A stretch of DNA of 24,498 nucleotides from a virus: positions 1 to 24,498 of IMG/VR virus record IMGVR_UViG_3300032296_002723; one strand, given 5' to 3'. The notes below the pieces were generated by a model. That model did not search any database. It saw nothing but the letters and a program-made list of their open reading frames with translations, and was not told the DNA's origin. Positions 2,996 through 21,411 of the stretch are shown here, in pieces. A program made the translations under genes and the position numbers. The number at the start of each line of letters is the position of its first letter. Positions within the stretch are counted from its first letter, which is position 1.

Positions 2996-3484
2996 ATGAG
3001 AAACTTATTTAATTTTAATTCTTTTGTTGGATTTTTGAACGAATCGGAGGAACAATCTAAATCTCTAGATAAGATATTGAAGTCTAGAGGTGGAAAAGGA
3101 GAAGATGAAAAAATCCCAGGATATCATTTTGATAATATCAAGAAGATTTTTGGAAACTCTGAATATGTTACCAGATTTAAAATAGCCCAAGCTCTAAAGG
3201 CAATGGACATGGATTTTTTCCCCACTAATTCTAAATTTCCAAATCCAGAAGTTAATAGAAATTTATCACAGAAAGACGGGATGATTTTGACTTTCTATAT
3301 AGGTGATCCAGAACAGAATAAGAAAATGGATCAAATTGGAGAAGACATTCTTTCTATAGTAAAACCGGTGGTTGATTTAATGGATAAAGACCCAGAAGGA
3401 GTTTACGGATTTTCTACCCTTATGTCCTTCCAAAGACCTGAAATTAAGAAGGCTAAAGCTCTAGCTTCTAATCTAAAGAAATAG
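2996..3484 (+). CDS. Small protein with capsid-targeting-like N-terminus; function unknown
   Basis: A 162-aa protein of unrecognised family. The frame is open further upstream (an ATG at 2912), but that region overlaps tube copy B; the start at 2996, 10 nt after the tube stop, is preferred because it gives an N-terminus (MRNLFNFNSFVGFLNES) matching those of the genes at 15163, 15500 and 15966. That N-terminus resembles the T4 capsid targeting sequence MKTYQEFIAE, and its FLNE fits the (L/I)xE prohead protease site. The rest is charged and globular with no known motif that I can see. It ends in TAG, rare in this window, and is followed by a strong terminator. A head-packaged internal protein is inferred, not shown. 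Confidence 0.75.
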   Translation: MRNLFNFNSFVGFLNESEEQSKSLDKILKSRGGKGEDEKIPGYHFDNIKKIFGNSEYVTRFKIAQALKAMDMDFFPTNSKFPNPEVNRNLSQKDGMILTFYIGDPEQNKKMDQIGEDILSIVKPVVDLMDKDPEGVYGFSTLMSFQRPEIKKAKALASNLKK

Positions 3485-12106: not shown

Positions 12107-14962
12107 ATGGATTTAATAACCAAACTACAAAATCTTAAAGAAACTACTCAATCCAGAGAAGTTAGAGATTTGTGTGAAACTTACATTTCTGAACTAAAGA
12201 GTGGAAGCTCTAACATTTCAGAGTCTCAAGTAAACCAAATCGTTGAATCTTCTAATAGTGAATCTACTATTTCTCCTCTAGAAGCTATGAGAAATGAGGA
12301 ACTAGAAAGATCCAAGTCCAGAGCTAGAATGATAGCAGAATCTTGGGGAGGAATTAACACCTTCAAGACCTCTAAAAATGCTGGTTCTTATGTGGACGGA
12401 TCTAAAGAAGAAACCCCTATAGCATCTGAAGTTCAGTCTAAGCTAAATGAAGCTCTAGAAGAAATGTCTAAATTTGACAAATCTGCTGCTTCTTTTGTTA
12501 AGACAAACAGGGTGGAAAATCTAGGAATCATGGAGTCTATCCTTTCTCTTACTAAAAAAGGAATCTATGATCACTCGGACTTTAAAATCCTGTGTGAGAA
12601 ATATGCTAATATTCTCAAGAACAAAAATGTTCCCGAATATCTAGTAATTGAAGGATTCATTAACGACTTTTCCAACTTCGGATGGGATAGCAGCGTTAAG
12701 AATACCGTTAACTCTATTATAGAGTCTTACAATGACCTAAGAACAGAAATAGAAGTTTCTAAAGCTCTTTACCAGATTTCTAACTCCGGAAGTGCTAGCT
12801 TCTACTCTCCAGTTAAAGAATCTATCTCTAAGTGGTTAGTTTCTGAGTCTAAATCTATTCCTGCTCTTTCTAGAGATCTTGGAGTTTGGTCTTTCAATCC
12901 TGTAGTTAGAAATTTGATTAACACCCTTTCCGTTTTAGAGTCAAACAATTCTAAATTGAATATTCCTACTGTTAATGGAAATTCAGAGATCAGAAAAATC
13001 TATTCTCCTGTTTTAGTAGAAGGTGGCAGAACTATCTTTGCAGTTGGAAAAACTCTTTTTGAAGGAGATGAGTACGGTGTTAGAAAACTTAGTAACAGAG
13101 ATATCTCTACTATGAATAAAGATTTCCTAGGATTACTAGAGTCTTTCTATTCTGAAGGAGTTAAAGTTGACGACAAAGGAATTTCAGTTTATGTAGGTGA
13201 TACTAAAATCTCTATCATAGAAGAAAAAGAAGAAACTAAGATTTATCTAAACAAAGATCAAGTTAATTTTAGCGACTATAATCAACTTGCTAAAGTAATT
13301 TCTCTTAGAATCTCTAAAGGTCTTGGAGTTAACGAGAGCAAAGTTATTTACGACGTAATTAAACTTTATGAAAACTTCAACAGTATAGTTGAGCTAGACT
13401 TTGCTAAAACTATCACTTCTAAAGTTTACGAAGGAGCTTCTGTTAGCTTAATCAAGTGGAACGGAAAAATGTATCTTCAGAGAGTTAACGAAGCAATGAG
13501 AGAAAATTCTCTTTTTGAAGTTAATGGATCACAAGCTGCTAACATAGTAAAAGATTTCTTGAAATATGACATTTCAGAAGGATTGACTGAATTCCTAGAC
13601 GGAGAGAAGAAGATCAAGTCTATTATGTTAAATGATAGAAAGAAAGTTATTGATAACATAGCTATAGTAGAATCAGAAATGAAGAAGATTGAGGCTTTGG
13701 TTGCTACCAACCCTCTTTATAAAGGATCTAGACAACTTTCTGAAGCTTATTCTCTTTTAGAGAAAGAACTTCAGACTTTGAAGTCTAAATGGTCTACAAT
13801 CAATGCAGAGTTGGATTCTATAGAGAATAATCCTATAGAAATCTCAGGAGATCTAATGGAGGATTCTAAATTTGCAGTAGGAGACTACGTGAAAGTTAAA
13901 GAAAACGGAAATACCGGTAAGATCATTTCGGTAGATACTACTTCTGGATCTTATACAGTTCTTCTGGACAGCGGAAAAACTGGAGACTTTGGAGTTGAAG
14001 ATATTGTAGATCTTGAAGACGCTTTCCAAAAATCTTCAGACGAGAATTCAGAAGAGGGTGAAGGTGTTAAAGAATCTACCCAGCCTTTGGCTAAAGCTCC
14101 ATCTGCAGGAAAAAACCCACAGGGAAAAACTCCTGCTCAAGTTTTAAAATCTAGCATTTCAATTGCACCTAGCTCAAAAGATCAAGAGAAGGAAGGAAAG
14201 AAAGACGTAGAAAATTTGAAGGATGCTAACCTAGAAGAAGCTCCTAAAAGCAAGAACAAATCTACAGAATATGAGGTAAACGACGAGATTGGATACAATC
14301 TAGAAGAATCTCAAGATTCTCTGGTTGTTGCTCCAGGTGGAAAATCTAATGCAGATATGTCAACCGAATTTGAAAGATCTGGTCTTAAAGCTGCTAATTT
14401 AGCTAAAGCTCCTGGTAAAGAAGAAGGAGATGCTGATTATGAAATTCACTACCCAGAGCCAAAGGGATCTAAAAAGGCTGAGATAATGGGAAATTCTAAT
14501 CTAGCTTCTGCTCCTGGAATGGGAAAATCTAAAATGGATGAGTCTGATTTATCTAAGCTAAGCTCAGATATGTCTACTGCACCAGGTTCACCAGTAGGAG
14601 ATTCTGGATATAAAGTTAAGATCAATATCCCTAAAGCTTCTAGTCCAGAAATCGATAACTTGGACACGATGAACTTAGCAAATGCTCCAGAAGAAGGTTC
14701 TAAAGTTCCTACCAAAGACACAACAAATCCTAATTTTGCTACTTCTCCAGGTAACGTAGAAGGAGATGCAGGATATGAAGTTGAGTATATCGAAACTGAC
14801 GGATCTAATAAAGCAGAAATTGATAACTTAGATACAATGAATTTAGCAGATGCTCCAGCAGCTGGAACTGAAGCTGAAACAGGTCTAGAGATTAATTCTG
14901 AAATGGGTTACAACTTGACTGAAGGTTTCGAGAGACCTAGTCCCGAACTAAAAAAAAATTAA
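12107..14962 (+). CDS. Large protein with KOW/SH3-like domain and C-terminal AP-motif repeats; function unknown
   Basis: A 951-aa protein. Residues 1-585 are mostly helical with a Ser/Asn/Glu-rich surface, including a coiled-coil-like stretch near 525-580 (RKKVIDNIAIVESEMKKIEA). Residues about 588-638 (KFAVGDYVKVKENGNTGKI, then a beta-rich ISVDTTSGSYTVLLDSG) look like a KOW/SH3-type barrel. From about 660 on, a linker-like region repeats a short motif, NLAxAPG and variants, about every 20-45 residues. The frame ends TAA just after a run of nine A's, while the -1 frame continues the same repeat style to 15141; a frameshifted product of about 1011 aa is likely or intended. It precedes genes with capsid-targeting-like N-termini, so a head core or virion role is conceivable but not shown. 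Confidence 0.82.
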   Translation: MDLITKLQNLKETTQSREVRDLCETYISELKSGSSNISESQVNQIVESSNSESTISPLEAMRNEELERSKSRARMIAESWGGINTFKTSKNAGSYVDGSKEETPIASEVQSKLNEALEEMSKFDKSAASFVKTNRVENLGIMESILSLTKKGIYDHSDFKILCEKYANILKNKNVPEYLVIEGFINDFSNFGWDSSVKNTVNSIIESYNDLRTEIEVSKALYQISNSGSASFYSPVKESISKWLVSESKSIPALSRDLGVWSFNPVVRNLINTLSVLESNNSKLNIPTVNGNSEIRKIYSPVLVEGGRTIFAVGKTLFEGDEYGVRKLSNRDISTMNKDFLGLLESFYSEGVKVDDKGISVYVGDTKISIIEEKEETKIYLNKDQVNFSDYNQLAKVISLRISKGLGVNESKVIYDVIKLYENFNSIVELDFAKTITSKVYEGASVSLIKWNGKMYLQRVNEAMRENSLFEVNGSQAANIVKDFLKYDISEGLTEFLDGEKKIKSIMLNDRKKVIDNIAIVESEMKKIEALVATNPLYKGSRQLSEAYSLLEKELQTLKSKWSTINAELDSIENNPIEISGDLMEDSKFAVGDYVKVKENGNTGKIISVDTTSGSYTVLLDSGKTGDFGVEDIVDLEDAFQKSSDENSEEGEGVKESTQPLAKAPSAGKNPQGKTPAQVLKSSISIAPSSKDQEKEGKKDVENLKDANLEEAPKSKNKSTEYEVNDEIGYNLEESQDSLVVAPGGKSNADMSTEFERSGLKAANLAKAPGKEEGDADYEIHYPEPKGSKKAEIMGNSNLASAPGMGKSKMDESDLSKLSSDMSTAPGSPVGDSGYKVKINIPKASSPEIDNLDTMNLANAPEEGSKVPTKDTTNPNFATSPGNVEGDAGYEVEYIETDGSNKAEIDNLDTMNLADAPAAGTEAETGLEINSEMGYNLTEGFERPSPELKKN

Positions 14963-15080
14963 AATCGGCTCTTAGCAAGGTTTGGGCTTTTGCTCCCGAG
15001 AACGAGGAGACAGAAGGTAAAAAACCAAAACCCGAAGTAGAAAGTCTTGAAGGGAAAATGAGTGTAGCTCCAGACGGAAA
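14085..15080 (+). repeat. Degenerate protein-level repeat with an (L/M)xxAPG core
   Basis: Twelve or so copies of an AP-centred motif: LAKAPSAG, ISIAPSS, LEEAPKS, LVVAPGG, LAKAPGK, LASAPGM, MSTAPGS, LANAPEE, FATSPGN, LADAPAA, then after the frameshift WAFAPEN and MSVAPDG. Some copies sit in a longer unit, EGDAGYEVEYxExxGSxKAE and IDNLDTMNLA(N/D)AP, repeated twice near residues 845-855 and 900-915. The DNA is not identical between copies. Likely flexible binding or cleavage linkers. Confidence 0.7.
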
Positions 15081-15141
15081 AACTAAAAAGTCTGAAGGTA
15101 CACTCATTTCTCGTGAAGAAGAAGGAGAAGAAAAAGAATAA
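14950..15141 (+). CDS. -1 frame extension of the 12107 gene (probable frameshift product)
   Basis: The -1 frame is open from 14941 to TAA 15139-15141 and has no ATG near its start. It reads KKKLKSALSKVWAFAPENEE, later SLEGKMSVAPDGKTKKSEG, ending in a Glu-rich tail, so it carries two further copies of the AP motif of the upstream protein. The junction is an A9 run (14950-14958) containing A AAA AAA in the zero frame, the classical slippery heptamer, four bases before the zero-frame TAA. Six nt later, TCGG 14965-14968 can pair with CCGA 14996-14999, and AGCAA 14974-14978 with TTGCT 14990-14994, a possible stimulator. A homopolymer sequencing error would explain the same data. Confidence 0.7.
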   Translation, partial: KKKLKSALSKVWAFAPENEETEGKKPKPEVESLEGKMSVAPDGKTKKSEGTLISREEEGEEKE

Positions 15142-15162: not shown

Positions 15163-15498
15163 ATGAAAAACTTAATGACTTTTGGAGAACTCAACGAGTC
15201 TCAAATATTTGAAGCTTTCGGAAAAGGAGCAGGTAAAGGATTAAATCCCCTCTTTAAGAAAAACTTCATGGATATGGCTACTAAAGCCTATGGATACAAG
15301 GAAAGTGGAGAAACCCTTTCTAGAGAAATTGACGGAGTTAAATCTACCATCACGGTAAAAGATTCTGGAATTAAATCTAGTTTAATTGGAGATTATCCCC
15401 TAACCAAAACCAAATCGGTTGACTATGTAAAGTTCTTGAATAAAATTGGGGACGAAGCGAGAAAACAAGCTAAGAAAATAGCTAAAGAAAAAAAGTAA
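15163..15498 (+). CDS. Small protein with capsid-targeting-like N-terminus; function unknown
   Basis: A 111-aa basic protein of unknown family. It begins MKNLMTFGELNESQIF, matching the N-terminal pattern M(K/R)xxxx(F/Y)...(L/I)xE shared with the genes at 2996, 15500 and 15966 and with the T4 capsid targeting sequence; ELNE fits the prohead protease site. The body has a Gly/Lys-rich stretch (GKGAGKGLNPLFKKNF) and a C-terminal Lys/Ala/Glu helix (EARKQAKKIAKEKK). Its small size, basic charge and N-terminus recall T4 internal proteins packaged with DNA. Only 1 nt separates its stop from the TTG of the next gene. Confidence 0.78.
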   Translation: MKNLMTFGELNESQIFEAFGKGAGKGLNPLFKKNFMDMATKAYGYKESGETLSREIDGVKSTITVKDSGIKSSLIGDYPLTKTKSVDYVKFLNKIGDEARKQAKKIAKEKK

Positions 15499-15499
15499 T

Positions 15500-15961
15500 T
15501 TGAAAATCCTGGATAACTATACAGAATGGCTAAAAGAATCTAGAGAATTAACTAGAAGTTCTGGTTATGAGATTACTTTAAACCCATGGATAGTAAGACC
15601 ACTTGGCATGAATTCTACGATATGCCCAGGAGGAGGAGAAATGAGATCTTATACCGTTTATTTGAACGGGGAAGAAATCATAGGACGTAACAAATTTGGT
15701 ATGGTGGGATCTAAAGAAGGAGGTATTTTACAGGCAATTTTGCCTAATAATAATCCTGATATAGCTTTTGTTGAGAATATCAACATCCCTGAAGGATTGA
15801 GGGGAAAAGGAATTGGAGCTAAAATATATCAAGCTTTAGCCAACGAAATAAAAAGAACTATCGTCAGCTCGTCTGATAGCAGAGCAGCAGGTCCTGTTGC
15901 ATCCCAAACATCTTCATCTGAAGCTTTTTGGGCAAAACATAAAGAATTTAAACCACAATAA
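15500..15961 (+). CDS. GNAT-like acetyltransferase with capsid-targeting-like N-terminus
   Basis: A 153-aa protein starting at TTG 15500. The TTG is chosen because it restores MKILDNYTEWLKES, which matches the N-termini of its neighbours, and because the next ATG is 36 codons on. The C-terminal half has a GNAT acetyl-CoA motif: FVENINIPEGL followed by R101-G-K-G104-I-G106 (R-x-x-G-x-G) and the helix AKIYQALANEI, then a second block ending EAFWAKHKEF, the usual beta5-alpha4 end of the fold. N-terminal to that, the sheet has a plausible SYTVYLNGEEIIGRNKF stretch. An acetyltransferase of unknown target is predicted. If the N-terminus is a real head-targeting tag, the enzyme would be packaged and injected, by analogy with T4 Alt. 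The tag reading is inference. Confidence 0.72.
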   Translation: MKILDNYTEWLKESRELTRSSGYEITLNPWIVRPLGMNSTICPGGGEMRSYTVYLNGEEIIGRNKFGMVGSKEGGILQAILPNNNPDIAFVENINIPEGLRGKGIGAKIYQALANEIKRTIVSSSDSRAAGPVASQTSSSEAFWAKHKEFKPQ

Positions 15962-15965
15962 AAAA

Positions 15966-16613
15966 ATGAAAAATATTCAAACCTTTGGGGACTTTATTTT
16001 AGAGAAGAATCTCTTTTTGGGAGAAACTATATTTATAGATTCCCAGCCAGATAACTATTTTGAAGGCGTTCTATTAGAAGCCAAAAAATTTATCGATCAA
16101 AAAGAACTTGCCGACGAGGTTAAAAAATCTCTAGAGGAAGGAGAAACTGTTTATATTAAGGTTTTGGGAAATCCTCGTAGACCTGTTAAAACGGTAACAC
16201 ATAAACTTGCAAAGATGCTTGTTGAACTGATCAATTCTGTTGCATATGGCGAGTTTAGAAGAAGATGGTCTAATCTAAGTGAGGAACAATTTGATGAGGT
16301 AATTGCTACAACTTTAAAGGATGTTCTACAGGATTGGCATAAGAGTGTAGATAAACCAAACTTAACTGACGGTCAAATCTATGGAAATTTGAGAACATTG
16401 ATTAAAACTAGATTACTTGGAGCCAATAATCAATTAATGAGAAAGGTAACTAAAGAGCCTTCTGGATCTCAGCAAGTGGATTACGATGCAATAGATAGAA
16501 CTATTAATAAAATCTTAACTGGAACTACAGATAGACCTTATAGACCAGCAGTAAAAGCACCAGAGCCTGGTGAAAAGAGCTGGTTTGATTACGATCCTAA
16601 CGTTCAGGATTAA
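15966..16613 (+). CDS. Protein with capsid-targeting-like N-terminus; function unknown
   Basis: A 215-aa protein. The frame is open upstream to an ATG at 15897, but that overlaps the GNAT gene; ATG 15966, 4 nt after that gene's stop, gives MKNIQTFGDFILEKN, again the shared pattern with ILE as the (L/I)xE site. The body is mostly helical with a basic middle (YGEFRRRWSNLSEEQFDEV) and a C-terminus with Pro and aromatic residues (YRPAVKAPEPGEKSWFDYD). No motif is recognised. It ends the 15163-16613 group and a strong terminator follows. Confidence 0.78.
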   Translation: MKNIQTFGDFILEKNLFLGETIFIDSQPDNYFEGVLLEAKKFIDQKELADEVKKSLEEGETVYIKVLGNPRRPVKTVTHKLAKMLVELINSVAYGEFRRRWSNLSEEQFDEVIATTLKDVLQDWHKSVDKPNLTDGQIYGNLRTLIKTRLLGANNQLMRKVTKEPSGSQQVDYDAIDRTINKILTGTTDRPYRPAVKAPEPGEKSWFDYDPNVQD

Positions 16614-18184: not shown

Positions 18185-18787
18185 ATGGCAGGTTTTATAG
18201 AAAATCCACAAGGCAGTCCAATCTTTCAAAGGATTAGAGATTCTATTAAGAATCTAAGTAATTTTGGGCTGAATTATGGGGACATGGTGGTTAAAAACTC
18301 CCAAGCCATAGGACAGACCGAAGCAGCTTTTCTAAAGAAGGGTTTAATTGAGGACGAAACGATGCTTTACGCTCTTGCTAGACAAGATACCACTTCCAAG
18401 CAGTACGTTTCTTATTTTGATAAAGACTACAAAGGAAAGAGAGACTATCTCAGAAAGTTTTCACTTAACCCCGAGATTGAATTTATTCTGGATGTAGTAA
18501 ACGACGAGTCAATTTCCTACGACAGCCATAATTTTTTTGCATACCCAGCTTTTTTAAATCTAACGGGGCTAAAGGAAAAAGTTGTTGATAAGATCAACGA
18601 GAACTACAAGAAGCTCTACGATATGTTTGGATTTACTGACAGCATTAGTGCTTGGCAGTACTTCAGACAATTTTTGATAGATGGATATGTTGCCTTTGAA
18701 ATTATTTACGATGACAAGGGAAAAAACATTATTGGGTTTAAAGAAATAGACGCTATGACCTTAATGCCATCTGTGGAAAAACAGTAG
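18185..18787 (+). CDS. Portal protein paralogue 1, N-terminal part (gp20 type), ends at in-frame TAG
   Basis: N-terminal 200 residues of a T4 gp20-type portal, the dodecameric ring through which DNA enters and leaves the head. It matches the second portal from the first residue: MAGFIE, NSQAIGQTE, YFDKDYKGKRDYLRKFSLNP, QFLIDGYVAFEIIYDDKGK, then LMPSVEK. At 18785-18787 a TAG replaces the residue aligned with Pro in TEKAPDGS of the other copy, and the same frame then continues with DGTYLNVWWQYFKD into the next listed part. So this is one gene of 539 codons cut by an amber codon, not two genes. It is either readthrough, a recent mutation or an error. Confidence 0.88.
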   Translation: MAGFIENPQGSPIFQRIRDSIKNLSNFGLNYGDMVVKNSQAIGQTEAAFLKKGLIEDETMLYALARQDTTSKQYVSYFDKDYKGKRDYLRKFSLNPEIEFILDVVNDESISYDSHNFFAYPAFLNLTGLKEKVVDKINENYKKLYDMFGFTDSISAWQYFRQFLIDGYVAFEIIYDDKGKNIIGFKEIDAMTLMPSVEKQ

Positions 18788-18844
18788 GACGGGACATATT
18801 TAAATGTTTGGTGGCAGTACTTTAAGGATCCTAGAAGAAAAAGA

Positions 18845-19801
18845 ATGCTCTATGATTCCCAGATAATTTATATCTCATATGCTAAAGGAAATACTGTTTC
18901 TCGAGTTAGTTACGTTGAGAGATTAATTAGACCATATAACATTTTAAGAATTATAGAATATACCAGAGTAATCTGGTCTGTAATGAATGCTTCTTTCAGA
19001 ATGAAGATGACTGTTCCCATTGGAACTAGATCTCAACAGAAGGGAATGCAGACTCTGGGAGAATTAATGAGTATCTACAAGGAAGATGTTAGTTTGAATG
19101 ACCAGAGCGGAGAACTTTTCGTTAACGGGGCACCAAAGATTCAATTCTTTAAAAATTACTTGATGCCTTCTGGTGTTAATGGAACTCCTACAATTGAACC
19201 ACTAAATAACGTTGGTCCGAATTTGAACGATCCTGCTCCATTGGCTTATTTCTTCGATAAATTGATCAACGAGTCGAAAGTTCCAAACTCCAGATTTACT
19301 GGTCCAGACGGAGGAACAATGGGGAAATATGCAAACGCTGCAGAGGGACTAGATAAGCAAGAAATTAGATTTGCTAAATTCATCGACAGATTAAGAACTT
19401 CTTTTCAGGATATCTTAATTAAACCACTTTGGATCCAGATGTGTAAGGACTTCCCAGAATTGGAGAAAGACTACATGTTCAAGAGTCAATTGGGACTGGA
19501 TTATATTTCAGACAATCCATTCAAAAGAAACCAAGAGATGGAGATCATTCTTAAAAAGAAGGAATCTGTCGATAAACTAATTGCTTTGACTGATGATAGC
19601 GGGGGAGGATTCTTTTCAGTTCCTTATTTGATTGAAAATTATTTGGGACTTACTGAGGACGACATTAAGGCCAATGCAGAGGCTAGGAAAAAAGCAGAAG
19701 AAGAGAAGAAAGAAGGCGGAAAAGAGGGGGAAGCACCAGCAACTGGATCAGCTCCAGCAGCTCCGGCGGCTCCATCAGCTCCGGCCGCACCAGCAACTTA
19801 A
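18845..19801 (+). CDS. Portal protein paralogue 1, C-terminal part (same frame as 18185)
   Basis: Continuation of the amber-cut portal: the frame is open from the codon after TAG (18788) and the first ATG is at 18845. It carries YISYAKGNTVSRVSYVERLI, RVIWSVMNASFRMKM, the KVPNSRFTGPDGG block, then EIRFAKFIDRLRTSFQDILI and the DFPELEKDYMFKSQLGLDY end, all aligned with the second portal. The C-terminal tail is Ala/Pro-rich (APATGSAPAAPAAPSAPAAP), unlike the Lys/Glu tail of the other copy. If no readthrough occurs, ATG 18845 is a possible but unproven restart; the fragment alone would lack half the portal fold. Confidence 0.86.
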   Translation: MLYDSQIIYISYAKGNTVSRVSYVERLIRPYNILRIIEYTRVIWSVMNASFRMKMTVPIGTRSQQKGMQTLGELMSIYKEDVSLNDQSGELFVNGAPKIQFFKNYLMPSGVNGTPTIEPLNNVGPNLNDPAPLAYFFDKLINESKVPNSRFTGPDGGTMGKYANAAEGLDKQEIRFAKFIDRLRTSFQDILIKPLWIQMCKDFPELEKDYMFKSQLGLDYISDNPFKRNQEMEIILKKKESVDKLIALTDDSGGGFFSVPYLIENYLGLTEDDIKANAEARKKAEEEKKEGGKEGEAPATGSAPAAPAAPSAPAAPAT

Positions 19802-19812
19802 AAAGAAATTAA

Positions 19813-21411
19813 ATGGCAGGGTTTATAGAAGGAGCACCACAGAATAGATTTTTAACTCAGGTTTACAAAAACTTGAGTAGAATAGGAAAATTTGGGATGC
19901 AGTACGAAGACATGGTCATTCGTAACTCCCAGGCTATTGGTCAAACCGAGTCTCAGATGTTTTCTGAGGAAGGTAATGGATTTACGAACGATAGTGCATT
20001 CTACTGGACACTAGGCTATCAAGACACTAGAATAAGGAAGTATATTGCCTATTTTGATAAAGATTATCTTGGCAAGAGAGACTTTCTAAGAAAATTTGCT
20101 CTAAATGGAGAGATTGATTTCATTTTAGAGACTGTTTCGGATGAAGGAATTAACTATGATGATAAGAACTTCTTCTGTTATCCTGCTCTAAACAATCTAG
20201 ATTTTAAAGATAAGATTCTAGATAAAGTACAAGAGAACTTCAAAACCATCTACATGCTTTATGCTTTCCAACAAAACAATTTAGCATGGCAATTATTCAA
20301 ACAGTTCTTAATAGATGGATTTTTAGCTTTTGAAATTGTTTACTCTACGGACGGTAAAAAAATTGTTGGTTTTAAAGAACTAGATCCAACTTCACTTCAG
20401 CCCCATACAGAGAAAGCTCCGGATGGATCTTTCGAACAAATTTGGATCCAGTACCCAAAAGATTCTCAGCTTTCTAGAAAATTGAAGTCTGAACAGATTA
20501 TCTATATCTCTTATGCTAAAGGTAATTCTATTTCTAGAGTTAGTTATGTTGAGAGATTAATTAGATCTTACAATATTTTAAGAGTTATGGAGAACACGAG
20601 AGTTATTTGGAACGTGATGAACGCTTCATATCGACTTAAGTTCGTAATCCCAATCGGAACCCAATCCCAACAAAAGGGAATGCAAACTCTAGGACAGTTA
20701 ATGTCTTCTTATAAGGAAGAGATAACAATGAACGACACCTCAGGTGAACTTCTAGTAAACGGAACCCCTAAAATTCAGTTCTATAAAAACTATCTTTTCC
20801 CGGAAAAAGATGGTCAGTCTCCTCAGATTGATGTTTTAAATGCAAACGGTCCAGACTTTAATGTAATGGACAATGTCATCTACTTCTATAACAAATTGAA
20901 GATGGATTCTAAGATTCCTTATGCTAGATTTGCCGGAAGAGGAGCAACCCCAGCTAACTATCAAATTTCCATCGACCAGCTGGAAAGAGATGAGATTAGG
21001 TTCGAAAAGTTCTTAACTAGACTTAGATCTATATTCCAAGAAATTATCATTAAGCCTCTATACATTCAGATGTGTTTAGACTTCCCTGAGCTTTCTAAAG
21101 ACAGAAGTTTCAAAACCAATTTAGGTCTAGATTACTATAATGACAATCAGTTTTCAAAACTTTTAGATCTTGCCCACCTAACTAAGGCATCTGATTTTGT
21201 AACTGCTCTAGGTGATATGAAAATGAAGGTAGGGGAGGAAGAAAAACCCTACTTTGATAAGAATTTCCTGATTAAAAGATTCCTTCCAATTTCCAGAGAC
21301 GAGTTCAAAAAGAACGAAAAGTATAAGGAAAAAGAAGCTAAAGAAGCAGAAAAAGCTAAGAAGGAAAAACCGGAAGGCAAGGAAGGTGAGGGAGAATCCT
21401 TTAGTTTATAA
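19813..21411 (+). CDS. Portal protein paralogue 2, complete (T4 gp20 type)
   Basis: Full-length portal, 532 aa (T4 gp20 is 524). Family blocks in order: N-terminal MAGFIEGAPQNRF and NSQAIGQTESQ; AYFDKDYLGKRDFLRKFAL; KQFLIDGFLAFEIVYSTDGK; QIIYISYAKGN and RVSYVERLIRSYNILRVMEN; SSYKEEITMNDTSGELLVNG; SKIPYARFAGRG; EIRFEKFLTRLRSIFQEIII; then IQMCLDFPEL and a Lys/Glu-rich tail. It starts 11 nt after the first copy ends. Being uninterrupted it is the best candidate for the working portal. The start context ATGGCAGG is shared with both tubes and the other portal. Confidence 0.92.
   Translation: MAGFIEGAPQNRFLTQVYKNLSRIGKFGMQYEDMVIRNSQAIGQTESQMFSEEGNGFTNDSAFYWTLGYQDTRIRKYIAYFDKDYLGKRDFLRKFALNGEIDFILETVSDEGINYDDKNFFCYPALNNLDFKDKILDKVQENFKTIYMLYAFQQNNLAWQLFKQFLIDGFLAFEIVYSTDGKKIVGFKELDPTSLQPHTEKAPDGSFEQIWIQYPKDSQLSRKLKSEQIIYISYAKGNSISRVSYVERLIRSYNILRVMENTRVIWNVMNASYRLKFVIPIGTQSQQKGMQTLGQLMSSYKEEITMNDTSGELLVNGTPKIQFYKNYLFPEKDGQSPQIDVLNANGPDFNVMDNVIYFYNKLKMDSKIPYARFAGRGATPANYQISIDQLERDEIRFEKFLTRLRSIFQEIIIKPLYIQMCLDFPELSKDRSFKTNLGLDYYNDNQFSKLLDLAHLTKASDFVTALGDMKMKVGEEEKPYFDKNFLIKRFLPISRDEFKKNEKYKEKEAKEAEKAKKEKPEGKEGEGESFSL

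Follow-up and report, generated by a model that had tools for sequence, protein, structure and literature searches.

A predicted GNAT-like protein with a capsid-targeting-like start in a T4-like phage, and the likeness of its tag to a scaffold repeat of related phages

The internal proteins IPII and IPIII of T4 carry the N-terminal tag MKTYQEFIAE, in which positions 4, 7, 8 and 10 are Y, F, I and E, respectively. According to passages of a review covering the T4 capsid-targeting sequence (CTS), both proteins are cut by gp21 and their cargo is injected, the first 10 residues of IPIII are enough, with positions 4 and 7 mattering for targeting and positions 8 and 10 for processing, and the CTS was suggested to let T4-like phages carry various proteins (PMC9026906). 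For phage P1, the first 30 residues of DarB, a 250-kDa protein, bring a reporter into the head (PMC9024508, passages on DarB). GNAT domains of polyvalent proteins, which are defined by several domains (2-15) per polypeptide, and GNATs of mycobacteriophage late genes were predicted to be injected or deployed in the capsid, as stated in sections of PMC5512222. Rac of phiKMV-like phages is likewise a phage GNAT and acetylates host RNA polymerase (PMC7824862, in the part concerned).

The protein described here was compared with each of these systems. As in IPII and IPIII, an N-terminal tag with the core Y-x-x-[FW]-[IL]-x-E is present, whereas the tag has 13 residues instead of 10 and the cargo is a GNAT-like domain. 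The likeness proposed to T4 Alt is that of a packaged modifying enzyme active at the start of infection; Alt differs in chemistry and fold, and its 7-residue propeptide, as given in a passage of PMC9026906, was missed by our tag expression. Unlike the tag studied here, the Dar proteins had no common N-terminal consensus in the passages of PMC9024508. The product is a single domain of 153 aa, whereas polyvalent proteins have 2-15 domains; the GNATs of PMC5512222 are domains of large proteins or belong to other solo families, with no removable T4-type tag described in its sections on them, and for Rac packaging was not stated in the relevant part of PMC7824862. Since injected or capsid-borne phage GNATs have been proposed before (parts of PMC5512222 and PMC7824862) and a review has suggested carriage of various proteins by way of the CTS (PMC9026906, in part), the kind of protein is already known. 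New are the likeness of the tag to the scaffold repeat, the presence of tagged enzymes in a huge phage and the swap of the leader, and in the open-licence literature no report was found of N-terminal tags that mimic the repeats of a scaffold, or of tags of this type from huge phages. The original observation on the GNAT stands, on grounds stronger than those of the preliminary description.

The gene, its start codon and its neighbours

The window, that is, the whole stretch of 24,498 bases analysed (a virus record, G000), belongs to a T4-like phage. The second of its portal genes shares 44% identity with the LR756500 counterpart and 35-36% with the counterparts in Lak phages, which were recorded from Prevotella, and from such relatives we infer that the phage is probably huge and infects Bacteroidota. 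The genes first needed here are as follows.

15500-15961, + strand: GNAT-like protein, 153 aa, TTG start (from the ORF translation and the predicted structure)
15163-15498, + strand: conserved gene upstream of the GNAT, with a start similar to the tag (MKNLMTFGELNE followed by S); tag in 10 of 15 orthologues, absent from L010-L014
15966-16613, + strand: conserved downstream gene with the tag MKNIQTFGDFILE; 12 of 15 orthologues have [LIV]xE at 11-13, the exceptions being L008, L015 and L016
2996-3484, + strand: further ORF with a tag-like start (MRNLFNFNSFVGFLNE followed by S), assigned from the sequence of the start

The ORF had been described as a TTG-started frame of 153 aa lying one base behind the previous gene, and its coordinates, length and spacing are as claimed: the stop codon of 15163-15498 ends at 15498, one base ahead of the TTG at 15500, and four bases separate the end of the GNAT ORF from the start of 15966-16613. 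The reading frame opens at 15482, and the TTG at 15500 is the sole ATG, GTG or TTG ahead of the ATG at 15608 (codon 37), a start at which would delete the tag and the first predicted strand of the GNAT. The tag was said to need the TTG start, and TTG 15500 is indeed the only common start codon that retains it. Among nine tagged genes of related phages for which a GTG or TTG start was suspected, eight had no other ATG, GTG or TTG in frame before the tag, the one exception being L124 with an ATG ahead of it. Such GTG and TTG starts on related tagged genes make TTG 15500 less odd, and they say nothing of the low dosing at which the start had been taken to hint.

Besides the GNAT ORF, tag-type starts in the window were found at 15163-15498, 15966-16613 and 2996-3484, and the tag of the conserved neighbours of the GNAT was lost in some sisters. 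Fifteen relatives of 15966-16613 were found, and a Pfam match of this protein to a T4 baseplate protein (E 0.006, below the cut-off) was rejected as too weak.

The GNAT gene is accessory. It was missing at the junction in all 14 sister loci spanning it (L003-L016), in which both flanking genes were present, and some of these loci are near-identical (L010 and L012 give the same identities), so that the 14 loci amount to fewer than 14 independent cases. The flanking genes overlapped by one base or lay at most 14 bases apart in the 13 sister loci that were parsed (L011 was left out, and the gene is there). The GNAT query gave no match at E ≤ 1 in 15 sister contigs, which are fragments, and the same query matched the window itself. 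In L008, a different tagged extra gene of 263 aa, with the start MRIKSYLEFINE followed by AETV, was found just upstream of the orthologue of 15163-15498; no clear Pfam family was found for its protein.

The tag and the scaffold repeat of related phages

Two features of the N-terminus of the GNAT ORF were considered.

15500-15538, + strand: capsid-targeting-like tag, residues 1-13 (MKILDNYTEWLKE), with a predicted protease cut after E13 (from a profile test and the four T4 CTS positions)
15518-15538, + strand: tag core YTEWLKE, residues 7-13, like the scaffold repeat of the sister contig G007 (best of the 7,472 heptapeptides of the window)

The tag sits at the very N-terminus, ahead of the GNAT domain. 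At the same spacing as positions 4, 7, 8 and 10 of the T4 tag it has Y7, W10, L11 and E13, so that both targeting positions are aromatic (Y7 and W10) and both processing positions ([LI]xE, with L11 and E13) are retained.

Tags of this type were searched for in LR756500 (462 kb), in which the tag expression matched 23 of the 632 ORFs, the shuffles giving an expectation of 3.0; of 1,766 internal Met positions, 3 matched. An initial expression had failed to find the T4 sequence and was relaxed once; the relaxed form still misses IPI and Alt, and in T4 it gave four distinct matches among 247 ORFs (IPII, IPIII, MobB and Alt.-3). The tighter form MK[YF][IL]xxYxxFxxE was found in 18 LR756500 proteins, the bodies of which had only short matches in common, the leucine-rich-repeat (LRR) group excepted. 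Pfam scans of eight of these 18 assigned one to the DUF2201 metallopeptidases, with a VWA-like domain besides (E 9e-34), one to the PNK3P phosphatases (E 2e-21) and one to the LRR proteins; the other five gave no family above the cut-off. A C-terminal motif near NADDFGFFDN was noted by eye in 9 of the 18 (LR756500 loci L035, L037, L038 and L041), perhaps as a second sorting signal.

A 13-residue profile was trained on 16 LR756500 tags, which were picked by the tighter expression after the matches had been seen. On this profile the GNAT start scored 6.3 bits and ranked second of the 378 possible starts in the window. Six of 11,971 start-codon 13-mers from the window, four sister contigs, T4, G019 and G001 scored at least 6.3 bits (a few T4 starts are counted twice owing to an overlap of about 500 bases between the T4 pieces), namely four orthologues of 15966-16613 (that of the window included), the GNAT ORF and one internal start in G001. 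When the residues of the GNAT tag were themselves shuffled, 22 of 20,000 shuffles attained 6.3 bits. The tag is more than a product of chance.

A gp21-type protease was found above the Pfam cut-off in G007, within a 688-aa protein in which a 14-residue repeat also occurs in 14 copies, the core of the repeat being Y-x-x-Y-[LVI]-[AG]-E. In the G007 ORFs of at least 100 aa this core expression, which was composed after the likeness had been noticed, occurred 17 times: 14 times in the protease-scaffold protein, twice in N-terminal tags and once elsewhere. For the count over relatives the expression was loosened again, slightly, and all 70 protease-scaffold ORFs recognised in the 80 loci fetched, out of 186 relatives, had 8-15 core motifs; starts lying within the scaffold repeats of incomplete scaffold ORFs were left out of the tag count. 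The gp21-type protease was found in G007, in LR756500 and in the 99-kb contig of the GNAT homologue L002. The gene was not found on the sister contigs G004 and G011, both being fragments, and the protease-scaffold gene was not in the 24,498-base window, likewise a fragment; the scaffold evidence stems from relatives. As side observations in G007, the tag MSRILNFNEFLSE stands on a protein that looks CHAP-like by eye (L030:6239-7033), and the GTG-started MEIVKSFQDYFLFE on one that looks nucleotidyltransferase-like by eye (L029:14170-14964).

A scaffold profile was then built from the 14 G007 repeats, with no tag included, and run over heptapeptides. In the window, YTEWLKE of the GNAT was first of the 7,472 heptapeptides with 11.2 bits, and the next scored 7.7. 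In T4, read as six-frame ORFs of at least 80 aa from all five pieces, YQEFIAE of IPII and IPIII was first of 49,453 heptapeptides with 12.8 bits, the next scoring 12.2, and the first rank was the same without the piece 66,501-80,000; five of the 49,453 scored above the GNAT core, three of which are no known tags. The tag of 15966-16613 ranked only 24th in the window and those of 15163-15498 and 2996-3484 far lower, and the scaffold likeness, strong in the GNAT, is thus weak in its neighbours. A tandem repeat resembling the tag was found in the scaffold of relatives of the window, whereas the T4 scaffold gp22 was not among the ten best T4 matches of the profile (run without the piece 66,501-80,000). 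The core expression gave 9 distinct matches in T4, among them the gp21-cut head proteins IPII, IPIII and gp23, and in gp23 the match FGSFLTE (residues 59-65) is the end of the 65-residue propeptide given in a passage of PMC9026906. The capsid-targeting-like start that had been proposed for ORF 15500-15961 is thereby well supported at the level of sequence, by the four T4 CTS positions, by the likeness to the scaffold repeat of a sister and by the gp21-type protease that this sister encodes.

The GNAT-like domain, its homologue and the proposed role

The remainder of the ORF has the following features.

15563-15958, + strand: GNAT-like domain, residues 22-153 (from the predicted structure, structure comparison and the homologue)
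15800-15817, + strand: acetyl-CoA loop motif R101-G-K-G-I-G106 (from the sequence; it begins the helix 105-117 of the predicted structure)

The acetyl-CoA loop motif of GNATs is [RQ]xxGx[GA]. The loop R101-G-K-G-I-G106, which the preliminary description had pointed out, is present in the ORF as RGKGIG, fits this motif and is retained in L002, a homologue on the 99-kb contig of another phage, 52% identical to the GNAT in the best segment. By sequence, the GNAT scored 15.8 bits and L002 14.6 bits on PF00583 (Acetyltransf_1), against a curated cut-off of 20.7, and were thus not filed there. In the other searches with the GNAT protein, NCBIfam gave only EctA, far below the cut-off, PADLOC and PHROGs gave nothing, and PDB gave weak matches only, the best being YjdJ (E 0.012).

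The predicted structure had a pLDDT of 66.7, with residues 1-21 below 50. With this model Foldseek gave nothing at E ≤ 0.001, its best match being a GNAT (E 1.8e-3, TM-score 0.38), and the structure comparison (VIA) gave 2k5t (PanM/YhhK), a bacterial protein without such a tag, as the best match, with Z 7.6 and 3.0 Å over 95 residues at 13% identity. Among the best 50 VIA rows, with Z below 8, none outside the GNAT fold was recognised, 4cry, 4crz, 1z4e, 5l7l and RibT being taken by us as GNAT-fold proteins. The L002 model (pLDDT 63.9) gave the same picture, again with 2k5t as the best match (Z 7.3, 10% identity). Because two models and the loop motif agree, the GNAT fold proposed earlier for this product, here for residues 22-153, is supported as a prediction, by models of moderate quality with Z values that prove little singly and with a Pfam score below the cut-off. 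Many GNATs have a catalytic Tyr, near the place of which, as we take it, Trp144 of the window GNAT stands; the Trp of this FW..HK segment is present in both homologues, and the enzymatic activity of the GNAT is therefore only putative.

L002 was the only GNAT homologue found in viral contigs, and none was found in phage records, plasmids and species genomes at the sensitivity used; L024, the sole genome match of a pattern search, was rejected for a stop codon inside the pattern. The leader of L002, MGRFIISENEKKRILGLYLVE followed by S, differs from the tag of the window, and in the alignment WLKES of the window GNAT stands opposite YLVES of L002. Both leaders end in LxE before the GNAT, so the same domain lies behind two leaders with possible protease sites. 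A DNA pattern for the L002 leader gave 38 matches in viral contigs, the L002 gene included, all 38 of them lying 4-8 residues after an ATG. After removal by eye of 13 near-duplicate class-2 N-termini, [LI]xE was found within 20 residues after the leader in 19 of the 25 distinct sequences used, and in 3/25, 1/25, 4/25, 5/24 and 2/20, respectively, for the next five 20-residue blocks. Within its own 99-kb contig this leader was on the GNAT alone (1 of 89 ORFs). This second recurrent N-terminal leader, in the form [IL][ST]ExEKxRILGL[HY] followed by LxE(Q), was noted in L045-L082 and in G019 (L097, L102 and L103); its carriers are diverse proteins, and some of their phages encode a gp21-type protease.

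The most likely mechanism is that the protein is loaded via the scaffold, loses its tag and is injected. The tag would imitate one unit of the tandem repeat of the protease-scaffold protein of the lineage, by which the GNAT would co-assemble with the scaffold core of the prohead; a gp21-type protease would cut after E13, between WLKE and S, as at the scaffold repeats; and the mature protein of about 140 aa would remain in the head and enter the host with the DNA. There it would most likely acetylate a host protein, in the manner of T4 Alt, which ADP-ribosylates RNA polymerase. Taken as a whole, from the loading to the acetylation, this course of events is in our judgement probable.

Retention of the tag-borne route with loss of the enzymatic function, so that the injected GNAT acts by binding a host protein and blocking or remodelling it, is improbable. 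It would accord with 2k5t as the best structural match of both models, PanM/YhhK acting mainly as a partner in PanD maturation, and with the Trp of the FW..HK segment in both homologues, where many GNATs have the catalytic Tyr; yet the acetyl-CoA loop is fully retained in both, and the PanM match is not specific, as the top rows lie within under about 1 Z. An ordinary intracellular GNAT with a late defence or metabolic role, the tag-like start of which is due to chance or has another role, would fit an accessory gene, and intracellular GNATs are common in phages, the phiKMV-type Rac acetylating host RNA polymerase (PMC7824862, in the part concerned). Against such a GNAT, which we regard as unlikely, the start was singled out by two independent profiles, the gene lies between two genes bearing tag-type starts, and L002 also has a recurrent leader with LxE. 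Finally, the tag would put the GNAT in the core ahead of maturation, where it might act within the prohead by acetylating phage head proteins before DNA packaging; but the gene is missing at the junction in all 14 sister loci and from the 15 contigs searched (fragments), which means that these relatives, as far as seen, do not require the GNAT for assembly, and such a role is very improbable.

Beyond the single protein, packaging behind a scaffold-like tag could be of wider extent. We tentatively propose, at somewhat less than an even chance, that the T4-type capsid-targeting sequence is a copy of the tandem repeat of the scaffold (in this huge-phage lineage 8-15 units, with a possible protease site at the end of each), such that a gene gaining one unit at its front becomes head cargo. 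The GNAT would then be one item of a swappable injected arsenal, with the metallopeptidase, PNK3P phosphatase and LRR proteins of LR756500 as further items, and a different phage would have taken up the same GNAT behind a second leader, unrelated in sequence and likewise with LxE at its end. If this is true, sequences would reveal the head cargo of uncultured huge phages, since the tag borne by the injected proteins of a phage could be predicted from its scaffold repeat; many unknown proteins would become testable effectors of the first minutes, the form of the T4 capsid-targeting sequence would be explained, and acetylation would be a further chemistry brought in behind a removable T4-type tag.

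Other features of the window

Downstream of the tagged genes, family profile searches gave the following.

16697, + strand: gp55-like sigma factor, adjoining the GNAT region
17059, + strand: gp4-like head closure protein
17545, + strand: gp2-like end protector
18185-19801 and 19813-21411, + strand: two portal genes (gp20) in tandem

In the first portal gene, a TAG codon interrupts the frame at 18785-18787 of the window, and all 15 sister loci are without a stop there. For late promoters, TATATAAA was found 4 times in the window against 2.0 expected, 17 of 100 shuffles reaching 4, and TATAWATA was not enriched. Upstream, within 14938-15141, a gene for a 951-aa protein (12107-14962) ends in a nine-A run and is followed by a conserved frame without its own ATG. 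This frame was present in all 14 sister loci L003-L016, and the nine-A run, by exact pattern, in 8 of the 14; the run could be the site of a programmed frameshift. Residues 591-624 of the 951-aa protein matched a MutS2/Smr-associated SH3 domain just below the cut-off (E 4e-5).
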